A DNA stretch of 64,000 bases. It comes from Calonectria ilicicola (Eukaryota; Ascomycota; Sordariomycetes; Hypocreales; Nectriaceae). Of this stretch, positions 1,827 to 40,253 are shown one piece after another (positions within the stretch are counted from its first letter, which is position 1; each line of letters opens with the position of its first letter). The stretch covers positions 2,356,001 through 2,420,000 of the forward strand of contig CP085834.1 of the NCBI GenBank assembly GCA_020809705.1. The letters run 5' to 3'. The translations under genes were made by a program, and so were the position numbers. A model generated the notes under the pieces. It ran no database searches and was not told the DNA's origin. It saw only the letters and a program-made list of their open reading frames with translations.

Positions 1827-1953
1827 AGCAATTTGGCGCAGTGGAAGCGCGGTAAGTTTACACGTCACTGAGCACTCATCAATGACTCAATTCTAACTTG
1901 CCTTAGCCGGGCTCATAACCCGGAGGTCGCACGATCGAAACGTGCAATTGCTA
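1827..1953 (+). tRNA. Initiator tRNA-Met (CAT) interrupted after position 26
   Basis: Two exons, 1827-1851 and 1907-1953, join into a 72-nt tRNA. The acceptor arms AGCAATT (1827-1833) and AATTGCT (1946-1952) pair perfectly. The D arm is GCGC/GCGC. The anticodon arm CCGGG-CTCATAA-CCCGG (1907-1923) carries CAT at 1914-1916. The T arm GCACG/CGTGC has loop ATCGAAA. The A1:T72 pair and A54 in the T loop are hallmarks of eukaryotic initiator tRNA. The A box (TGGCGCAGTGG) lies intact in exon 1 and the B-box region in exon 2. The interruption falls between the D arm and the anticodon stem, not one base 3' of the anticodon where eukaryotic tRNA introns normally sit. A T-run terminator follows, so transcription is plausible. 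Confidence 0.9.
1852..1906 (+). other. 55-nt mRNA-type intron inside the tRNA gene
   Basis: The segment starts GTAAGT, has TTCTAAC ending 11 nt before the acceptor, and ends CCTTAG. Its length and all three signals match the spliceosomal introns of neighbouring protein genes. Its removal restores a perfect initiator tRNA. It sits between tRNA positions 26 and 27, where the tRNA splicing endonuclease of eukaryotes is not known to cut. Removal by the spliceosome is inference. Confidence 0.75.
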
Positions 1954-29541: not shown

Positions 29542-30998
29542 ATGGTTTCCAAGCTCTTTACTCCTTCGGCCATCTCTGCCGCTAGCATCATGGCCTTGAT
29601 TGGTCATGTTGTCGCTCTCCCGGTCGACATCCCGATGCCCATTGTGAGCCGCGCTACTGACCCCGGCTCCATTGTCCTGGATCCTGTTACGAACATGGGT
29701 GGTATTGGCTCTGTTCCCAATGCCAGACTGCTTGACTATGACACATTCTACTGGTCCAACGGAGGTAAATGAAATGCAAAACAAATAGAATAGCAAATGA
29801 CTAACCACTCATAGACATTGTCGGTAAACTCAGCTGCACTGGTGGCAAGGACCACAAAATGCTTAACGTGGCTCGACTGGGCAGCGATGTTACCAGCACG
29901 GATTGCTCCAACCCCGGAGAAATCACAATGACATTCAAGGACAAGGCCGCTTTGCAATCCGCCAAGGCTGATTGGCAGTGGTTGGACGGCAACAAGAACA
30001 TCGTCATTGTAGTAGCCGATGGTGGCAACTGCGGTGGCTCCCAAGGCCGAGGTGAATATGCAGTCACCGAGGCCGAATACGACGACACTGCTCTCACGGC
30101 CACACTGTCTGGACGATCAACTGATTGGATGGACTTTGTCACCGACTACCGCCTCAATGTCAAGTCTGGGGGCGTTCAGGTCAGCAACGGCACCTTCACC
30201 AAGCGCATCGGCAAGAGCGGCAGCATTGACCTCGCCAATGACTTCTCCAAGAACCTCTTCTCCAAGGACATTGGCGATGTCAATCTCAGCGTGGACTGTG
30301 CCCACTGTGCAACCACTGGGTCAATCGACTTCGACTTTGACTTCAGCCTTACTCAGGGCGTCACGGGATCCATCACTGCTAGAAATGGGCTCGGAGCCAG
30401 TCTTGGCCTTGGGCTCACAGCTTCTGCACAGCTCACTGATCCCGTCGATATCGGCTCCGTCCAGCTTCTCACGCTCCCTCTCGCTGGAATTTCGATCGGC
30501 CCATTCCTCAACATCGGTCCCCAGATCACAGCCGGCGTCACTTCCAGCCTCCAGCCAGTTACCGCTGCCATCACGGCCGACTTTGGCGTTGCCATGGTCA
30601 TCCCCGACGGCACCACTCTCCGCTTCGGCAGTGACTCTGACCCCATCAACCCTCAGTTCAACAAGATTGGCCCAACCCTCAGTGCCTCAGTCAGTGTCGG
30701 TGCCAGCTTGTCTCCTGTGGTCACCTTCGATTTTGCCGCTACCATCTTTGGCAAGGGCGTGGTTGCCGGTATCGGCCTAGAAGCCCCCAAGCTTGATGCG
30801 ACTCTAACTGTCCAAGCTTCCACTGATAGCGGAGTATGCGGTGATGTCAACGCGAATGCTGGTGTTCAGCTTGATGTGAACGTCGGCGTGGATGTCAACC
30901 TCTTTGCTGGATTCGGGTCCGCCACTGATCAGCCCAACTCCAACAGCATCTTCTCCACTAGCACTCCCGTCTTCAGCGACTGTGTGCCCATTGCTTAA
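29542..30998 (+). CDS. Secreted protein of a fungal uncharacterised family, 468 aa
   Basis: Exon 1 is 29542-29764 and exon 2 is 29815-30998, with a 50-nt intron (GTAAAT, CTAAC, CATAG). The signal peptide lies within MVSKLFTPSAISAASIMALIGHVVA, with a likely propeptide to about residue 37. Residues 75-170 form a Cys-containing globular part (LSCTGG, DCSNPGEITM, GNCGGSQGRGEY). From about 170 the chain is a beta-rich, Val/Ser/Thr/Gly-rich region with alternating hydrophobic residues (SIDFDFDF, GLGASLGLGLTASAQL, GPFLNIGPQITAGV, LDVNVGVDVNLFAGFG). It ends DCVPIA. I recognise the pattern from unnamed secreted fungal proteins but cannot assign an enzyme activity. The codon bias is strong (C-ending codons), and with the CT-rich promoter this suggests high expression. 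Confidence 0.82.
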
Positions 30999-31817: not shown

Positions 31818-34067
31818 ATGTCATTTTTTTATGGGGATGCCAAGGACGATAAAGGGAAATATGGGCGTTTGGACCCTCCAGAGTCTACATACGCTCCGTC
31901 AGTCATCTCTGACACTGGAAAGCCACATCCATATGTATCCTCTTCCGAATACAACGAGCTCCCTACCCCAACGAATGCTGCTAATGTGTCACCCCTCCGA
32001 TGGATCTGGAACAAAGTTACATTCCGCAAATTTCGCGATAGCCTTACCCATGAGGAGAAAAAAAGCGTCTCTAGTGCGGGTCTTGGATCAGCACTCTGGA
32101 AATTTTGTTATCTTCACTTGCCCGCGATCGCCGCGACTCTGTGTCTCTTGTCATTATACGTTATGGAAGTCAAGTGGGAACCTCCTCATCCAGCACCAGA
32201 GGAGCTCGTTGCCCTTTTGTTTGCTGCCAAAGTACATGAGATCCTGATATTAATATCTTTGGGCGATATTCTATTGCACAGAATTCGCTATGGCCTTCTG
32301 AGAGACAACGGCATGCCGCTTGGGTTCATTTCGTCGGCATTTCAATTGTCCTCTCCAGCTCAATATCTTCTCAGTTGGGAATTCTGGGGCACAGTTCGAA
32401 ACCCAACCATGGACCGCTATTTTCATGCCGGCACTGCGGCAGTAATATTAATTCTGGCCCTGGTTGGCTTGAGTGCCAGCCCGCTTTCCGGAACCGCAAT
32501 GATCCCTAGGCCGTATTGGTACAACTTATCTGAGCTAATGGAACCCCCCTCTTACTCTTTCGAGTACATTATAGGCGATCCTTATTTTATGGAGCTTGAT
32601 TCTCAGCATGCAGCCCGAGCATATGTGGGAGACTGCAGTTTCGGCGGTGAAAGCTGTCAAGACCAACGGATGGGTTCAATATGGTATGCCATGGGAGATG
32701 CTCTTCAGAGTATTCAAGCCGGAATGATTCAGAACAATCTGTCACTTACAAGCCGTGGGTCTCCATCCAAATCTCGGCCCATATCATTATCTGCAACCTC
32801 GTCAAACTACTCACAATATGACGTTTCATTGGCAACCGGTCCTCCCAGTTTCGTCTCCGAACCTCTTGGTATTTATTCCACCATTCTGGGTTCTCGTTTA
32901 AGTTACCTGATTGATACACGCGAGACGGATTTTATTCTGAAAACCCACCCCATCGGCTCTGTTTTGCCAGACGGGAAATGGAAACAACCGATAGTGGCAG
33001 TCGACTGTCAGCAGGGACAAGGTCCAAATGATCCAACATTCAACTTTAACAGCTCCATTTATAACGGCCTCAACTTGAAGCTGGACTTTGAGGCAATCAA
33101 AGCCAGGCTAGATCTAAAGGAAAATGTTAAATCGCCATTCGGCAGGCCAATGTTTTTGGATGTCTCCCAAAATAGCTCATATCCGATCAGCGCCACCATT
33201 TTATATTCAAATACTACAGCCACCCAGGGATCCAAGGTCGAAATCGATTTCACCCTTTGCCTCATCCAGGCGCGTTGGGTTGAAACGGAGATGTGGGCGC
33301 CCGTGACTATACCTACAACTTATTTTGAGTTGCCAGTTCCACAGGATAAACTGCCCAACTATCTCCAGGAAACATCGACAGCAGAAAATGTCATAAAAAT
33401 GAAAAACTCTTGGTTGACAGAGATAGGCTTCTCTCAAACTGAGGTTAAGCTTGCCAAAACTAAATTGGTCAATTCGGCCTATGGTGGCATCTTTGAGTAC
33501 TGCCAATGGAGGCACTCGATTAATGGTGTAATAATCATGGATCAGTGCATACCCATTGGCCTCGCATTATATTTTGCAGACGCTCTCACATCCATGACTG
33601 GGTTCGAAGTACTGCTGGCAGATCCTGGAGCCACTATCACCTTGGAAGAGGCAAGATCAAAACTTAACGATAGCCATACTATTATAGGATCTAGGAGATA
33701 CATGAAGACACATGCGTATCGTCTTGACAGTGGCAATACTGTCAAACTAGCATTTGGGGTGCTAATCCTATATGTATACATTGCAGTGCTACACAATTTG
33801 ATTCTTATATTCTCCCCACACAGGTGGTTTAGTTCCGCTTGGGGAAGCATGGGCGAACTCATGACGTTAGCTCTGCGGTCCAAGGTTCCTGAAGGCTTGG
33901 AGAACGTCGGTGGAGGGGTAACAAGTTCTACCACATGGAAAAGGAATATCAGGGTGCGCGATGTGGATGGACAAGGACGATTGGAAATGGTCGTGAGCTC
34001 ATCACCCAACATTGACGATCCAAACAGATCACAGGGTTGTGTAACACCGAAGCAAAAGTACAGCTAA
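31818..34067 (+). CDS. Multi-pass membrane protein of unknown function, 749 aa
   Basis: Single exon. The N-terminal 90 residues are polar and Ser/Pro-rich, likely cytosolic. Hydrophobic segments lie at about 96-116 (LPAIAATLCLLSLYVM), 131-153 (VALLFAAKVHEILILISLGD), 204-224 (AGTAAVILILALVGLSA) and near the C-terminus (LAFGVLILYVYIAVLHNLILIFS). A loop of more than 400 residues between the third and last segment contains Cys pairs and NxS/T sites, so it is probably extracellular or lumenal. The tail after the last segment (SMGELMTLALRSK, then RDVDGQGRLEMVV) is typical of a large filamentous-fungal family of plasma-membrane proteins without known function. ATG 31818 is the first in frame. Confidence 0.8.
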   Translation: MSFFYGDAKDDKGKYGRLDPPESTYAPSVISDTGKPHPYVSSSEYNELPTPTNAANVSPLRWIWNKVTFRKFRDSLTHEEKKSVSSAGLGSALWKFCYLHLPAIAATLCLLSLYVMEVKWEPPHPAPEELVALLFAAKVHEILILISLGDILLHRIRYGLLRDNGMPLGFISSAFQLSSPAQYLLSWEFWGTVRNPTMDRYFHAGTAAVILILALVGLSASPLSGTAMIPRPYWYNLSELMEPPSYSFEYIIGDPYFMELDSQHAARAYVGDCSFGGESCQDQRMGSIWYAMGDALQSIQAGMIQNNLSLTSRGSPSKSRPISLSATSSNYSQYDVSLATGPPSFVSEPLGIYSTILGSRLSYLIDTRETDFILKTHPIGSVLPDGKWKQPIVAVDCQQGQGPNDPTFNFNSSIYNGLNLKLDFEAIKARLDLKENVKSPFGRPMFLDVSQNSSYPISATILYSNTTATQGSKVEIDFTLCLIQARWVETEMWAPVTIPTTYFELPVPQDKLPNYLQETSTAENVIKMKNSWLTEIGFSQTEVKLAKTKLVNSAYGGIFEYCQWRHSINGVIIMDQCIPIGLALYFADALTSMTGFEVLLADPGATITLEEARSKLNDSHTIIGSRRYMKTHAYRLDSGNTVKLAFGVLILYVYIAVLHNLILIFSPHRWFSSAWGSMGELMTLALRSKVPEGLENVGGGVTSSTTWKRNIRVRDVDGQGRLEMVVSSSPNIDDPNRSQGCVTPKQKYS

Positions 34068-35597: not shown

Positions 35598-38500
35598 TCA
35601 GTCATTGGCTACTGCTAGTAAGAGTTCAATGACCGCCTCACTGCCGCTTTGCGCGGCATGTGAGAGTGGAGTGTCGCCATAATCATCCTCTAAATCTATG
35701 TCCACTTTTTCGGTCTCGAGCAAGAGTCTCGCAATTGCCGTGTCATTCTTTTGGGCGGCCCACGAGAGAGGGGTGCGGCCGGTGACATCTTTTGAGTCTA
35801 CGTTGATTGCATCAGACTCAAGCAATACCCTTACCACTATCTCGTAGCCTAATATGGTAGCCCATAAAATAGCGGAACGGCCTTGGTTATCTTTCTTGTT
35901 TCGGTCGACATTCCCAATAGAGAGCAGGCTCTTGATCGTTTCCAAGCGTCCTCCTATCGTCGCCCATATAAGTGGAGTGCGGCCATTCATATCTTGCGAG
36001 TTGACGCTAGCCTTGCCAGTCCCAAGCAACATGTTGATGACTGAATTATGACCATTCTCGGCGGCCCATGAGAGGGGTGTCCTCCCGGATTCGTCGTATA
36101 CATCAGGATAAATGTTGCACACGTCAAGCATCAATTTGGCATCTGTCAAATAGCCATTCCGGCAGGCAAAAATGAGATGAGGCGAAGAGCTCCTTGTGCC
36201 GGAAATGATCTCGAGTTCGGTTTCAGAAAGCTTAGAAGGTGAGATCTTTTTTCCCTCCTCATTTTCAGATTCGGATCCGTCCTGCGATTTCTTCGTGCTC
36301 CGAGTAGCAGGCTTTGTTTCCCCGGCCATCTCATTGTCGCTCAATTGATCAAGATCAGCTTTCCATTTTTCCAAGAGGATCTTCACTACACCGTAATGGC
36401 CATTTTCGGCAGCTATCGATAGTCGGGTCTGGCCAGAAGCATCCTTGGCATCGATGTTGAGTGGGACATTTTTCAGAAGCACCCTAACGGCACGTTCACT
36501 TCCCATCTGAATCGCTTTCTGTAGTTGGGTCTGGCCAAAAGTGTCTCCTTCCGAATGTGAGGCACACTTCCCATACTCCAGCAACAGGTCTACCACGTCC
36601 TGATGCCCTTTAGTAGCAGCCAGCGCAAGTGGCCTTTCATTATATGCAACATCATCCATGTTCACATCTGCTTCTCTTGTATCTAGAAGTAGTTTCACTA
36701 CTCCAGTATAGCCACCCTCCGCAGCCCAAGAGATGGCAGGCCAGTCGTGACAATCTCTCTTGAAGTTGACATCAACTTTTCCCAAGTCCAGGAGTACCTT
36801 GACAACACCAGTGTGGCCGTTCTTGGAAGCCAATACGAGTGGTGTCATGCCCCATAAAGAACTGTTGAGCTGGGGACCAACATTGTTTGTTTCAAGAAGC
36901 AGTTTGACGATTCTGGCGTGGCCAAATTCTGCAGCGCTTTGCAGCGGTGTCCTACCTGGTTCCGCATAGTAATGGCCCTTTATTTTGGATGGTAAATTAA
37001 GATCGATTCCATCCTGTTTTAGTAATAATCGGACCATTCTCTCGTGGCCCTTGCTTGCAGCCCTTGCCATTGGAGTCCGTCGAGTACCATCCTCCTGGTT
37101 GACTCGAACTTTGCCGGTTTGGAGTAGTGCCTCTACCACACCATCGTGCCCATTGCTGATAGCCCGTAAGAGAGGCGTTTTAATGTCCACATCCGTCGAG
37201 TTAACATCAACTGCATCCAATTTTAGCAGCATCTTGACCACATCCTCATGTCCATGCTCGGCGGCGAATGAAAGCGGCGTTCGACCGCAGTAATTATCTC
37301 TCGGATCAACATTCACATCCGAGCCTTTGAGCATATATTCAACAGCATCTTGAACTCCAAAGTAGGCCGCCAAGTGCAACCCAGTCAAGTCTCTTGGGCT
37401 ATTAGGGCCATTGTCTGAACCAAACATGGCTTTTTGGCGCCAAAGAACTTGTGCCGACGACTCAATATGCATGGGCTTGTGGAGGAAATTGAGCACCGTT
37501 GGACTTGAATTGCTGGCAAGACGCGCATGGTGGCCCCAATTTGAGGCTGCATATTCGTACAGCGGGTTGCTTCCTAATCGCGTAGGGAATTCCCCACACG
37601 GCCCATCTCCGAACTGGTCAAAAGATAAGTATGTAGCACAAATCGTTGCAATTTCCAAATGAGCATTTGGGAACCACTTTTTCCACGTCTGATCAAAATA
37701 CTCCTGTGCTGTATAATGAACCAGTCCGACGGTATTTTTCTCGGTGTCGATGACAATTAAAGGAGCACAGGATTGAATTATGTGACAAGCTGACGGTATA
37801 TTATCTTCATCCAGTTGACTTTGACCCATTTCCACTGCGAGGGCATGTTGCAGCTCTGTTAACTTGAGTGGGGTCTGGGCATTGACAACCCAGGAAAGTG
37901 TCAGCATCGCGTCTTTGGGGAGATCCCCGCGTTGAGATTGGATCCTCTCCATAGCTTTATCATAAATCTCAAACAGCGCATCTGCCTTGCTATTTGAGGC
38001 TCTAGAGGCATCTTTAATATTCTCAAGGGCTTTCTTAAGTTGCTCGGGAGATCGTTTTCCAACCAATGACTCCAAATAGAGGTTGGCAAGCAGAAAACTA
38101 AAATGAGAAGATTAACATTTTTTTTTAGTTTAGGGTTGGGAAATACTCACACTCCTCCTATTTCCTTTTCTATTACTTTCTTGATTTCTGTTTGCAGCTT
38201 AGGGTCGCTCTGGACGAATTCTGGGAGGAAAAACATGTTTTGCTCCAAGTAGACTCGCACGTCTTCGCTACTGGGTTGTATTTCTATTGAAAAGCAACCC
38301 TCGAACATTCTCGTAATGTCCGGAATATCCCTTGACGTTGCAAAAATATTGAGTCCAGTTTTGCTCTGTAAGCTGAGAAGGTTTTTGATGAATCGAGTTC
38401 GGGAGCCTTCTGAATCTTGGCACTCGTCCAAAGCATCAACAATAATGAAAGTACGGTCATATCCTTTGATAACCGATTTTAGAACGGCAGTAATCTCGTC

Positions 38501-40253
38501 CAGTAACGGCCGTGTGCCTCTATCTTCATACTTCTCATATAGCTCAATTAAGCTCCCTACAGATTCCCATTGACGTGAAGAAAGTTGCTTGAGTAGGTTC
38601 GAAGCCATTTTCTCGGGTGTTTGGCTATCCTGTTCTTTATGGTTACAGTATAGGTAAGCAATCCCAACAGTGGTATCCTTGTGGAATTTATCGCTAATAT
38701 GTTTCACCACGACAGATGTCTGTATCGATTTGCCAGCTCCAGGAATTCCTGGGCAAAATAAGGTTTTGTTGGGACTCTGCAACCACTCATTAAACTGTGG
38801 TTCGCTGAGTAACCACTCAGAGGTTCCAGGTTCTCGCCTAATGATATAGTCGTTCTGGTGGAGAGAATAATCTAAATCAGACAGCCATTGAAGTATTTCT
38901 TTCTTCATTTCCAGTTCATAATCTACAAGCGGTTAGAGATTTGGATGTAATTCGAATATATATGCGGGTTTTACCTTGCATTCCTTGACTAGTTTGTGCA
39001 AGATGCAACTCTGTCGCTTGCAAACTCTCCTGGTTTTCTTGTTTGACTAGTGAACTTGAGCTTGTTTCCATCTTCAATAAATGACGAAACAACTTACACT
39101 CGAGGAGATCATTTTTACTCCCTGGATTCTTCTCTGAATTGCTCTGTTGTAAGTGGGCCATAAATTCTTTTGCAACAGCAGCTGCCAGAGCAGCAGCATG
39201 TTTCTGCCATACATTGTTTTGATGCGAATCAGCATAATCGCATATCCCTTTTATCACAAGACATGGGAGAATGTTCATAACTCCCGCAGCTTTCCTTTCA
39301 ATGCAAAGGATGTTTGGGCTGATTTCCTTGCTGAGCCTGTCCCGAAATGCTGCATCTTTAATGGCCCTGTTTCCAGATGCCATCAAGCCGTAATGAATTC
39401 GCATACCCCGGTGTTTTCTCTTAATTACCTTGGTATTGTCACAGTATAGACAGTCTTTGTCTTCGTCGGTGTCCTCCCCCGAGTGGTTTTCTCTGTTGGC
39501 GAGGTCTTTTGTGCCATCTTCATCTGGTTCGACATTATCAACATGGAGATAGTCTGCCTGGAATAAAATATCTTTCATCGAATCCGACCTTAGATACGCC
39601 TTCATCTCTGGGCATCTTTGTTTCAGCTGGTTGAGGTACTGGGGCACCCGTGGCCCCCTCATTTCGTGCTCCACCTCCATACGCATGGCAGCCGCTAATA
39701 ATGTGTCCGGTGGGTTATTCAAAACCCCAGTTCGCTGAAACTTGCCTCCATCCATTGCCCTACCCATGTCGAATTGGACCACGCCTGGAAACTGGCCTTT
39801 AGGGATACTGATGACCACATCGCCCAATCTGACTTTAGGTGGGATTCCACTTCCAATGCCAACCAGAAGGCCAAACTCAACTGAGGGGAAAGTATGAACC
39901 AGCTGCGCCGCAGCCATGGCCACTGAAGTGGCATCATTATGCCCTTTTGGTGGACAAGCTATGACAACATTGCGTCCATCAACCGACCCAAGAGTGTAAA
40001 CATTCGTATCTGCCCGGGGAGTTTCCAAATTTTCATGGAGTTCATCCAGCATCGCTATAGCTGCTGCCCGTTCGATAGCCCGCGAACATATCCAGCTGAT
40101 TTTATATTGCTCTCGTTTGAGCTTTCTCAGTTGCAGTGGTTGGTGGGGGACGCCAGCTTGGATGTGGGGCAGGGCCGCCGGCTCAGGGGCCATTAATGTT
40201 GCCATTGTGCCCAGAGTCAATCGAGAGGAGCCTTCTTTGGCGACTATTGACAT
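35598..40253 (-). CDS. NLR protein: PNP/UDP-phosphorylase fold, NACHT, ankyrin repeats, 1516 aa
   Basis: Exons 40253-38975, 38922-38151 and 38097-35598; introns are 52 and 53 nt with consistent phases. Residues 50-370 form the nucleoside phosphorylase-like effector domain (VYTLGSVDGRNVVIACP, VGIGSGIP, GDVVIS 144-149, GICDYADSH 336-344). A linker leads to a NACHT NTPase with Walker A GIPGAGKS (K491) and Walker B FIIVDALDE (585-593), winged-helix regions, then about 15-16 ankyrin repeats from 920 to 1516. A polar Ser/Glu/Lys-rich insert (TRSTKKSQDGSESENEEGKK) interrupts the ankyrin array at about two thirds. Fungal NLRs of this layout are linked to non-self recognition and programmed cell death. 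The purine-site motif usually read as E-M-E is ERK here (319-321). The start lies about 150 bp from the AT-rich transposon block. Confidence 0.92.

Follow-up and report, generated by a model that had tools for sequence, protein, structure and literature searches.

Introns in nuclear tRNA genes are taught as the job of a dedicated endonuclease, apart from the spliceosome, and the canonical eukaryotic ones lie at positions 37/38, one base 3' of the anticodon, where they are handled by the TSEN endonuclease and a ligase. Spliceosomal-type introns are known from other structured non-coding RNAs of fungi, among them nuclear rRNA, which is made by RNA polymerase I. Canzler et al. describe spliceosomal introns in fungal U3 snoRNA genes, and in Schizosaccharomyces pombe and other fungi the gene for U6, an essential small structured RNA made by RNA polymerase III (Pol III), holds a short GT-AG intron with a CTAAC branch site. 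The S. pombe intron sits near the catalytic nucleotides of U6 (PMC10484740), so that reverse splicing is easy to imagine there; a tRNA is not a part of the spliceosome. Outside the anticodon loop, tRNA introns have been recorded in archaea, red algae and nucleomorphs, sometimes several per gene, and in archaea and Cyanidioschyzon merolae their removal is ascribed to the splicing endonuclease, with bulge-helix-bulge motifs as its sites; the passages covered of the review that treats them contain no word beginning 'spliceosom' (PMC4090602). In the parts covered of a 2025 study of intron classes, no tRNA is given a spliceosomal intron (PMC11782384), and the initiator tRNA genes of the yeast Saccharomycopsis schoenii are without introns (PMC13148404). 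Among the titles and abstract openings listed in a literature search whose coverage left out most subscription papers and bioRxiv preprints, and which is no proof of absence, we did not find a spliceosomal-type intron in a tRNA gene described before, the known precedents being U6 and U3.

The locus considered here lies in a 64,000-nt window of Calonectria ilicicola DNA, by which we mean the whole stretch that was analysed. Window positions 1827-1953 (+ strand) hold an initiator tRNA-Met gene in two exons, with a 55-nt insert at tRNA positions 26/27. The features are listed below; the A and B boxes are assigned by the box consensus.

1764-1776, + strand: upstream element AAGGGCTAGGGCA, fitting [AG]AGGG[CT]TAGGGCA
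1820-1826, + strand: possible transcription start region GCAACAA, presumed from its likeness to yeast tRNA start sites; CCAACAA or similar in several sister copies
1827-1851, + strand: exon 1, tRNA positions 1-26 with position 17 absent (acceptor 5' strand, D arm, G26); identical in all nine genomic copies
1834-1844, + strand: A box TGGCGCAGTGG, inside exon 1
1852-1906, + strand: spliceosomal-type intron of 55 nt at tRNA positions 26/27; all nine copies are interrupted here, by inserts 52-55 nt long
1852-1857, + strand: 5' splice site GTAAGT; among the copies GTATGT in seven and GTAAGT in two
1893-1897, + strand: branch-site motif CTAAC; the A at 1896 is presumed to be the branch point and precedes the end of the intron by 10 nt; all nine copies have CTAACT
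1905-1906, + strand: 3' splice site AG; TTAG in the window, and CCAG, CAAG or TTAG across the nine copies
1907-1953, + strand: exon 2, positions 27-73, starting at C27 (anticodon arm with CAT, variable loop, T arm, acceptor 3' strand, discriminator A); identical in eight of the nine copies once spliced
1933-1941, + strand: B box GATCGAAAC, half of the internal Pol III promoter, inside exon 2
1980-1994, + strand: T15 tract, a likely Pol III terminator, starting 27 nt after the last tRNA base

Read from the window sequence, every feature named in the preliminary description is present at its place, and its claim that the outer segments join into a perfect 72-nt initiator tRNA is borne out. The spliced 72-mer has all its stem pairs (acceptor 7/7, D 4/4, anticodon 5/5, T 5/5), carries A1:T72, the anticodon CAT and A54 in place of T54, as a eukaryotic initiator cloverleaf does, and is called tRNA-Met(cat) by ARAGORN; the stems are complete in eight of the nine spliced genomic copies. 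The unspliced window gave no tRNA by ARAGORN at default settings (bacterial code) and nothing in Rfam at the gathering cut-off. When introns of up to 200 nt were allowed, ARAGORN assigned the wrong isotype to seven of the nine unspliced copies and called nothing in the other two. The failure of a standard tRNA finder to see initiator genes of such build, or to name them correctly, is a warning; in the tRNAscan-SE 2.0 paper, initiator genes are lacking or mislabelled in six of 173 eukaryotes, and all six cases are explained as mislabelling (PMC8450103).

Other parts of the window were also annotated. Positions 1-400, to the left of the tRNA gene, are AT-rich (GC 0.34) and perhaps a decayed repeat. 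A 379-aa open frame with DUF7029 and DUF7223 domains occupies 29859-30998, and is followed at 31818-34067 by a 749-aa open frame without a Pfam match, most relatives of which carry PF28351; the best named matches of this protein are from Dactylonectria, Fusarium and Clonostachys, at up to 36% identity (the best, Dactylonectria, at 36%). At 35598-40253 on the minus strand, adjacent open frames encode ankyrin repeats and an NPHP3_N NTPase domain, with below-cut-off matches to NACHT and the phosphorylase superfamily, and probably belong to a single NLR-like fungal gene that is interrupted by introns or frame breaks.

A search of the genome (69.9 Mb in 12 contigs) for the 20-nt core of exon 1 gave nine exact matches, spread over six contigs (one each on C1, C4, C10 and C11, two on C2 and three on C7); a tenth match, with two mismatches, is a tRNA-Arg(ccg) gene with an ordinary 37/38 intron. 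The core of exon 2 likewise has nine occurrences, eight exact and one shortened by a second intron, and in all nine cases exon 1 leads into its insert and then into exon 2. Splicing would give the same 72-nt tRNA from eight of the nine copies, and the product of the ninth (L015) differs by one change, an A4/C69 mismatch that breaks acceptor-stem pair 4:69. Intronless initiator tRNAs were sought with a universal pattern, which the spliced sequence of this fungus fits with no mismatch; at up to three mismatches it had no match in the genome. BLAST of the spliced 72-mer against the genome (E ≤10) returned separate exon pieces only, and L010, the copy with two inserts, was not among the matches listed. 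A pattern of anticodon plus T arm, with three mismatches, matched only the eight copies in which exon 2 is uninterrupted. The preliminary description had asked whether this was the only initiator gene, and the answer is nine copies on six contigs, all bearing the intron, with none intronless by pattern or BLAST. It had also offered a dead tRNA copy as the alternative, to be recognised by intact intronless genes elsewhere; that alternative fails by its own test, since the absence of any intronless match together with nine intron-bearing copies makes dead copies very unlikely. Beyond this genome, a pattern of exon 1 plus GTANGT had no match in collections of viral and of bacterial and archaeal contigs, a result with no bearing on related fungi, and an intronless pattern had nine matches in the viral contigs, by eye resembling bacterial or phage tRNAs, two of which fit the universal pattern within three mismatches.

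The introns at 26/27 keep GTA[AT]GT, CTAACT and AG in all nine copies, with the branch A 9-10 nt before the intron end in each. The full splice signal is thus present in 9/9 real introns vs 0 of 200,000 shuffled introns, and this together with the same architecture at nine loci excludes chance. The interiors, by comparison, have drifted. Across the 36 pairs of introns, interior identity stays within the 95th percentile for shuffled pairs (0.57, rounded values) in 27 and exceeds it in nine; six of these nine are all the pairs within a related cluster (L012, L014, L015 and L017), and the other three are slightly over, at 0.58-0.61. L012 and L017 are 98% identical across the whole intron, a difference of one base, and the residual likeness among the introns would fit their common descent. 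For six introns chosen as independent, column identity is 0.96 in the core vs 0.25 in the ungapped interior (chance level), so that the signals are kept while the interior drifts, as in U2-type introns, and the GT-AG ends and the 5' and branch sites are like those of the host's mRNA introns. With the signals in all nine copies, the interiors drifted and every copy found interrupted, the spliceosomal-type reading of the insert advanced in the preliminary description is strongly supported.

For the likeness to mRNA introns we compared candidate introns of actin-family genes, called from splice signals and open reading frame, with no cDNA. Three candidates, each flanked by stretches that read as actin-family protein, measure 54 nt (GTATGT...GCTAACTATTGACAG), 48 nt (GTATGC...CTAACATTGTCTAG) and 56 nt (GTAAGT...CTAATT...TTAG). 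Other candidates are longer (up to 116 nt) and have more varied branch motifs (CTAAC, CTAAT, CTGAC), some entries being possibly chance, and the tRNA introns fall within this range of size and signal. The genome has two conventional-actin-like loci, L112 (C6:2691894) and L113 (C11:3695227), and a stretch of its ARP4 protein is 92% identical to the counterparts in Thelonectria olida and Mariannaea sp.

The flanks of the nine genes are for the most part unrelated, with a mean pairwise identity of 0.57 over the 60 nt upstream and 0.50 over the 60 nt downstream, vs 0.49 for shuffled intron interiors. The 98.6% identity between L012 and L017, which are on different contigs, covers the gene with its intron but stops at -9 and +4, and their flanks are unrelated. 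L010 has some 60-75 bases of upstream DNA in common with each of L014, L016 and L017, and the same holds for L014 with L016 and with L017. Given these extents of shared sequence, homogenisation of whole units does not explain exons that are equal beside introns that differ; we infer from the sequences that purifying selection on each copy would account for both. The restriction of the L012/L017 likeness to the gene itself may reflect conversion, or an RNA-level copy of unspliced precursor.

L010 (C2:4975720) carries a 52-nt intron at 26/27 and, in addition, a 54-nt insert at 46/47, in the variable loop, which reads GTAAGC...CTAAC...CGAG; with both inserts removed, its tRNA is the common sequence. 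Present in just one of the nine copies, the second intron is most simply a later gain. Copying of an intron from another gene was considered as a source; in DNA searches of the genome, of low sensitivity at such length, neither the window intron nor the second intron of L010 (for which one candidate was scored) had a match elsewhere. The origin by reverse splicing that the preliminary description had raised is conjectural.

Spliceosomal introns were also found in other small RNA genes of this genome. Both U6 genes found (from the best 47 of 4404 family-search candidates scored), L080 (C1:6580508) and L081 (C3:884181), have mRNA-type introns, of 55 and 58 nt and at different positions, and both of these introns contain a B box, GGTTCGA. 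All three U3 genes found (L124, L125 and L126, from the best 24 of 1078 candidates scored) have GTATGT..CTAAC..CAG introns, of 130, 159 and 87 nt. Such introns are therefore a habit of the small RNA genes of this genome, in line with published fungi. The single match to SRP RNA (from the best 27 of 391 candidates scored), 292 nt for 293 model positions, gave no sign of an intron. Other tRNA genes were sampled by an RF00005 search, whose best 63 of 2542 candidates gave 59 loci, in which ARAGORN called 68 tRNA genes, or 64 after removal of repeats. Introns were called in ten of these 68 genes; ARAGORN put eight of them at positions 37-39 and the other two, in L108 and L110, at 34. Since ARAGORN confines introns to the anticodon loop and RF00005 needs a near-complete tRNA, this sample could hardly show introns of the new kind. 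Both elongator tRNA-Met genes found, L104 and L105, carry ordinary anticodon-loop introns, and the normal tRNA splicing route thus has substrates of its own.

Set beside the systems described above, the initiator introns share with those of U6 the short GT-AG form, the CTAAC branch site and, as host, an essential small structured RNA that is probably likewise made by Pol III. Here, however, the host is a tRNA, which is not among the known hosts of mRNA-type introns in Pol III small RNA genes (U6, U3), and the B box is in tRNA exon 2, whereas it is in the intron of both U6 genes of this genome. The U3 genes likewise have spliceosomal introns in a structured RNA, but theirs are 87-159 nt long and near the 5' end of the snoRNA, while those of the tRNA measure 52-55 nt and interrupt its core. 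Fungal nuclear rRNA offers the same parallel of a structured non-coding host, again with the difference that it is rRNA and not tRNA. Canonical eukaryotic tRNA introns are also introns of nuclear tRNA genes, at 37/38; those described here are at 26/27, with the second one of L010 at 46/47, lack a strict bulge-helix-bulge and have full spliceosomal signals. With archaeal, red algal and nucleomorph introns they have in common the location outside the anticodon loop and, in L010, more than one intron per gene.

The transcription signals fit Pol III, in that the A and B boxes are in exons, a run of at least five T follows each of the nine genes after 7-29 intervening bases, and no T4 run occurs inside any of the nine precursors; for comparison, a run of at least five T is found within 40 bases of 59 of the 64 other tRNA genes sampled. 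The regions upstream of the initiator genes differ from those of other tRNA genes. The motif [AG]AGGG[CT]TAGGGCA starts at -51 to -63 in five of the nine (the window gene, L010, L013, L014 and L017) vs 0/64 other tRNA genes sampled, with a shorter core of the element near one tRNA-Asp gene, L050. CAAGGG occurs upstream in 4/9 vs 2/64, and TATA in 1/9 vs 28/64. In both U6 genes CCAAGGGGTTATA, which is partly similar to the upstream element of the initiator genes, lies some 30 bases ahead of the approximate start.

These observations bear on several other explanations. One takes the interrupted genes for dead copies, or for a SINE of tRNA origin, and leaves the work to a normal initiator gene. 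Insertions outside the canonical site of eukaryotic tRNA genes are indeed mostly supposed to mark pseudogenes, according to the tRNA-intron review (PMC4090602), and L015 does have its one acceptor-stem mismatch. However, the exons are identical in eight of the nine copies while introns and most flanks diverge, the splice signals are kept in all nine, and neither pattern nor BLAST found the normal gene. A SINE or pseudogene family would have many decayed copies and a functional gene elsewhere; only nine copies were found, eight with intact exons and the ninth one base off, and in most pairs the shared sequence stops near the gene. We give this explanation next to no credence. A related one, that a functional intronless gene was overlooked because the assembly lacks it or because it has diverged too far, with more than three mismatches from the universal pattern, is highly improbable. 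Genome BLAST can overlook copies, as the failure to list L010 demonstrates, but the assembly comprises 70 Mb in twelve contigs, the universal pattern finds nothing at three mismatches, and nine selected intron-bearing copies would be needless beside such a gene.

Two further explanations accept the genes as functional and change the machinery. In one, the tRNA splicing endonuclease would remove the insert at a bulge-helix-bulge, in the manner of archaea, Cyanidioschyzon and nucleomorphs, and archaeal introns at non-canonical positions that include 25/26 and 45/46 are known (PMC4090602); a single-sequence fold of the window precursor does pair the intron ends. Yet when the strict motif, and that motif only, was sought at the 26/27 junctions, the central 4-bp helix was broken in all nine copies and the outer and inner helices were incomplete in all nine. 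Single-sequence folds of the nine precursors, inspected by eye, had no intron-exon pairing common to all, and the invariant parts of the introns are the spliceosomal signals. We regard removal by the endonuclease as very doubtful. It is unlikely, too, that the spliceosome removes the intron from a precursor made by RNA polymerase II (Pol II) under the direction of the upstream AAGGGCTAGGGCA element. Spliceosomal introns normally occur in Pol II transcripts, and the element and TATA counts do set the initiator genes apart from other tRNA genes; against this, the A and B boxes are intact, the downstream T tract is present in all nine and internal T4 absent, the element is missing from four of the nine copies, and the U6 genes have an upstream CCAAGGG that resembles part of it, together with intronic B boxes.

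We consider it very likely that every initiator gene found has a genuine U2-type spliceosomal intron at 26/27, with a Pol III precursor that is spliced by the spliceosome and on which translation initiation depends. Judging from its elements, the gene would be transcribed by Pol III, directed by the A and B boxes and ending at the T tract; the spliceosome would then recognise GTAWGT, CTAAC and AG and join exons 1 and 2, which would restore the cloverleaf. Because no intronless copy was found, gene content suggests that the supply of initiator tRNA, and with it all cytoplasmic translation initiation, would depend on the spliceosome. A counterpoint is that Pol III products are without the cap that aids the splicing of mRNA. 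In fission yeast, the U6 RNA made by Pol III is spliced (PMC10484740). The intron at 26/27 would most simply be old, predating the divergence of most copies, and L010 would later have acquired the second intron in its variable loop.

The cell thus probably needs its mRNA-splicing machine to make initiator tRNA. More broadly, we think it likely that in C. ilicicola the spliceosome is an obligatory tRNA-maturation enzyme, that splicing capacity sets the rate of translation initiation, and that tRNA genes can to this day acquire spliceosomal introns, as L010 with its second one indicates; that second intron is a natural experiment on intron gain. If this is true, two splicing worlds come together in each gene copy found for the tRNA with which every protein begins, and the supply of initiator tRNA, together with all protein synthesis, would be tied directly to the activity of the spliceosome.
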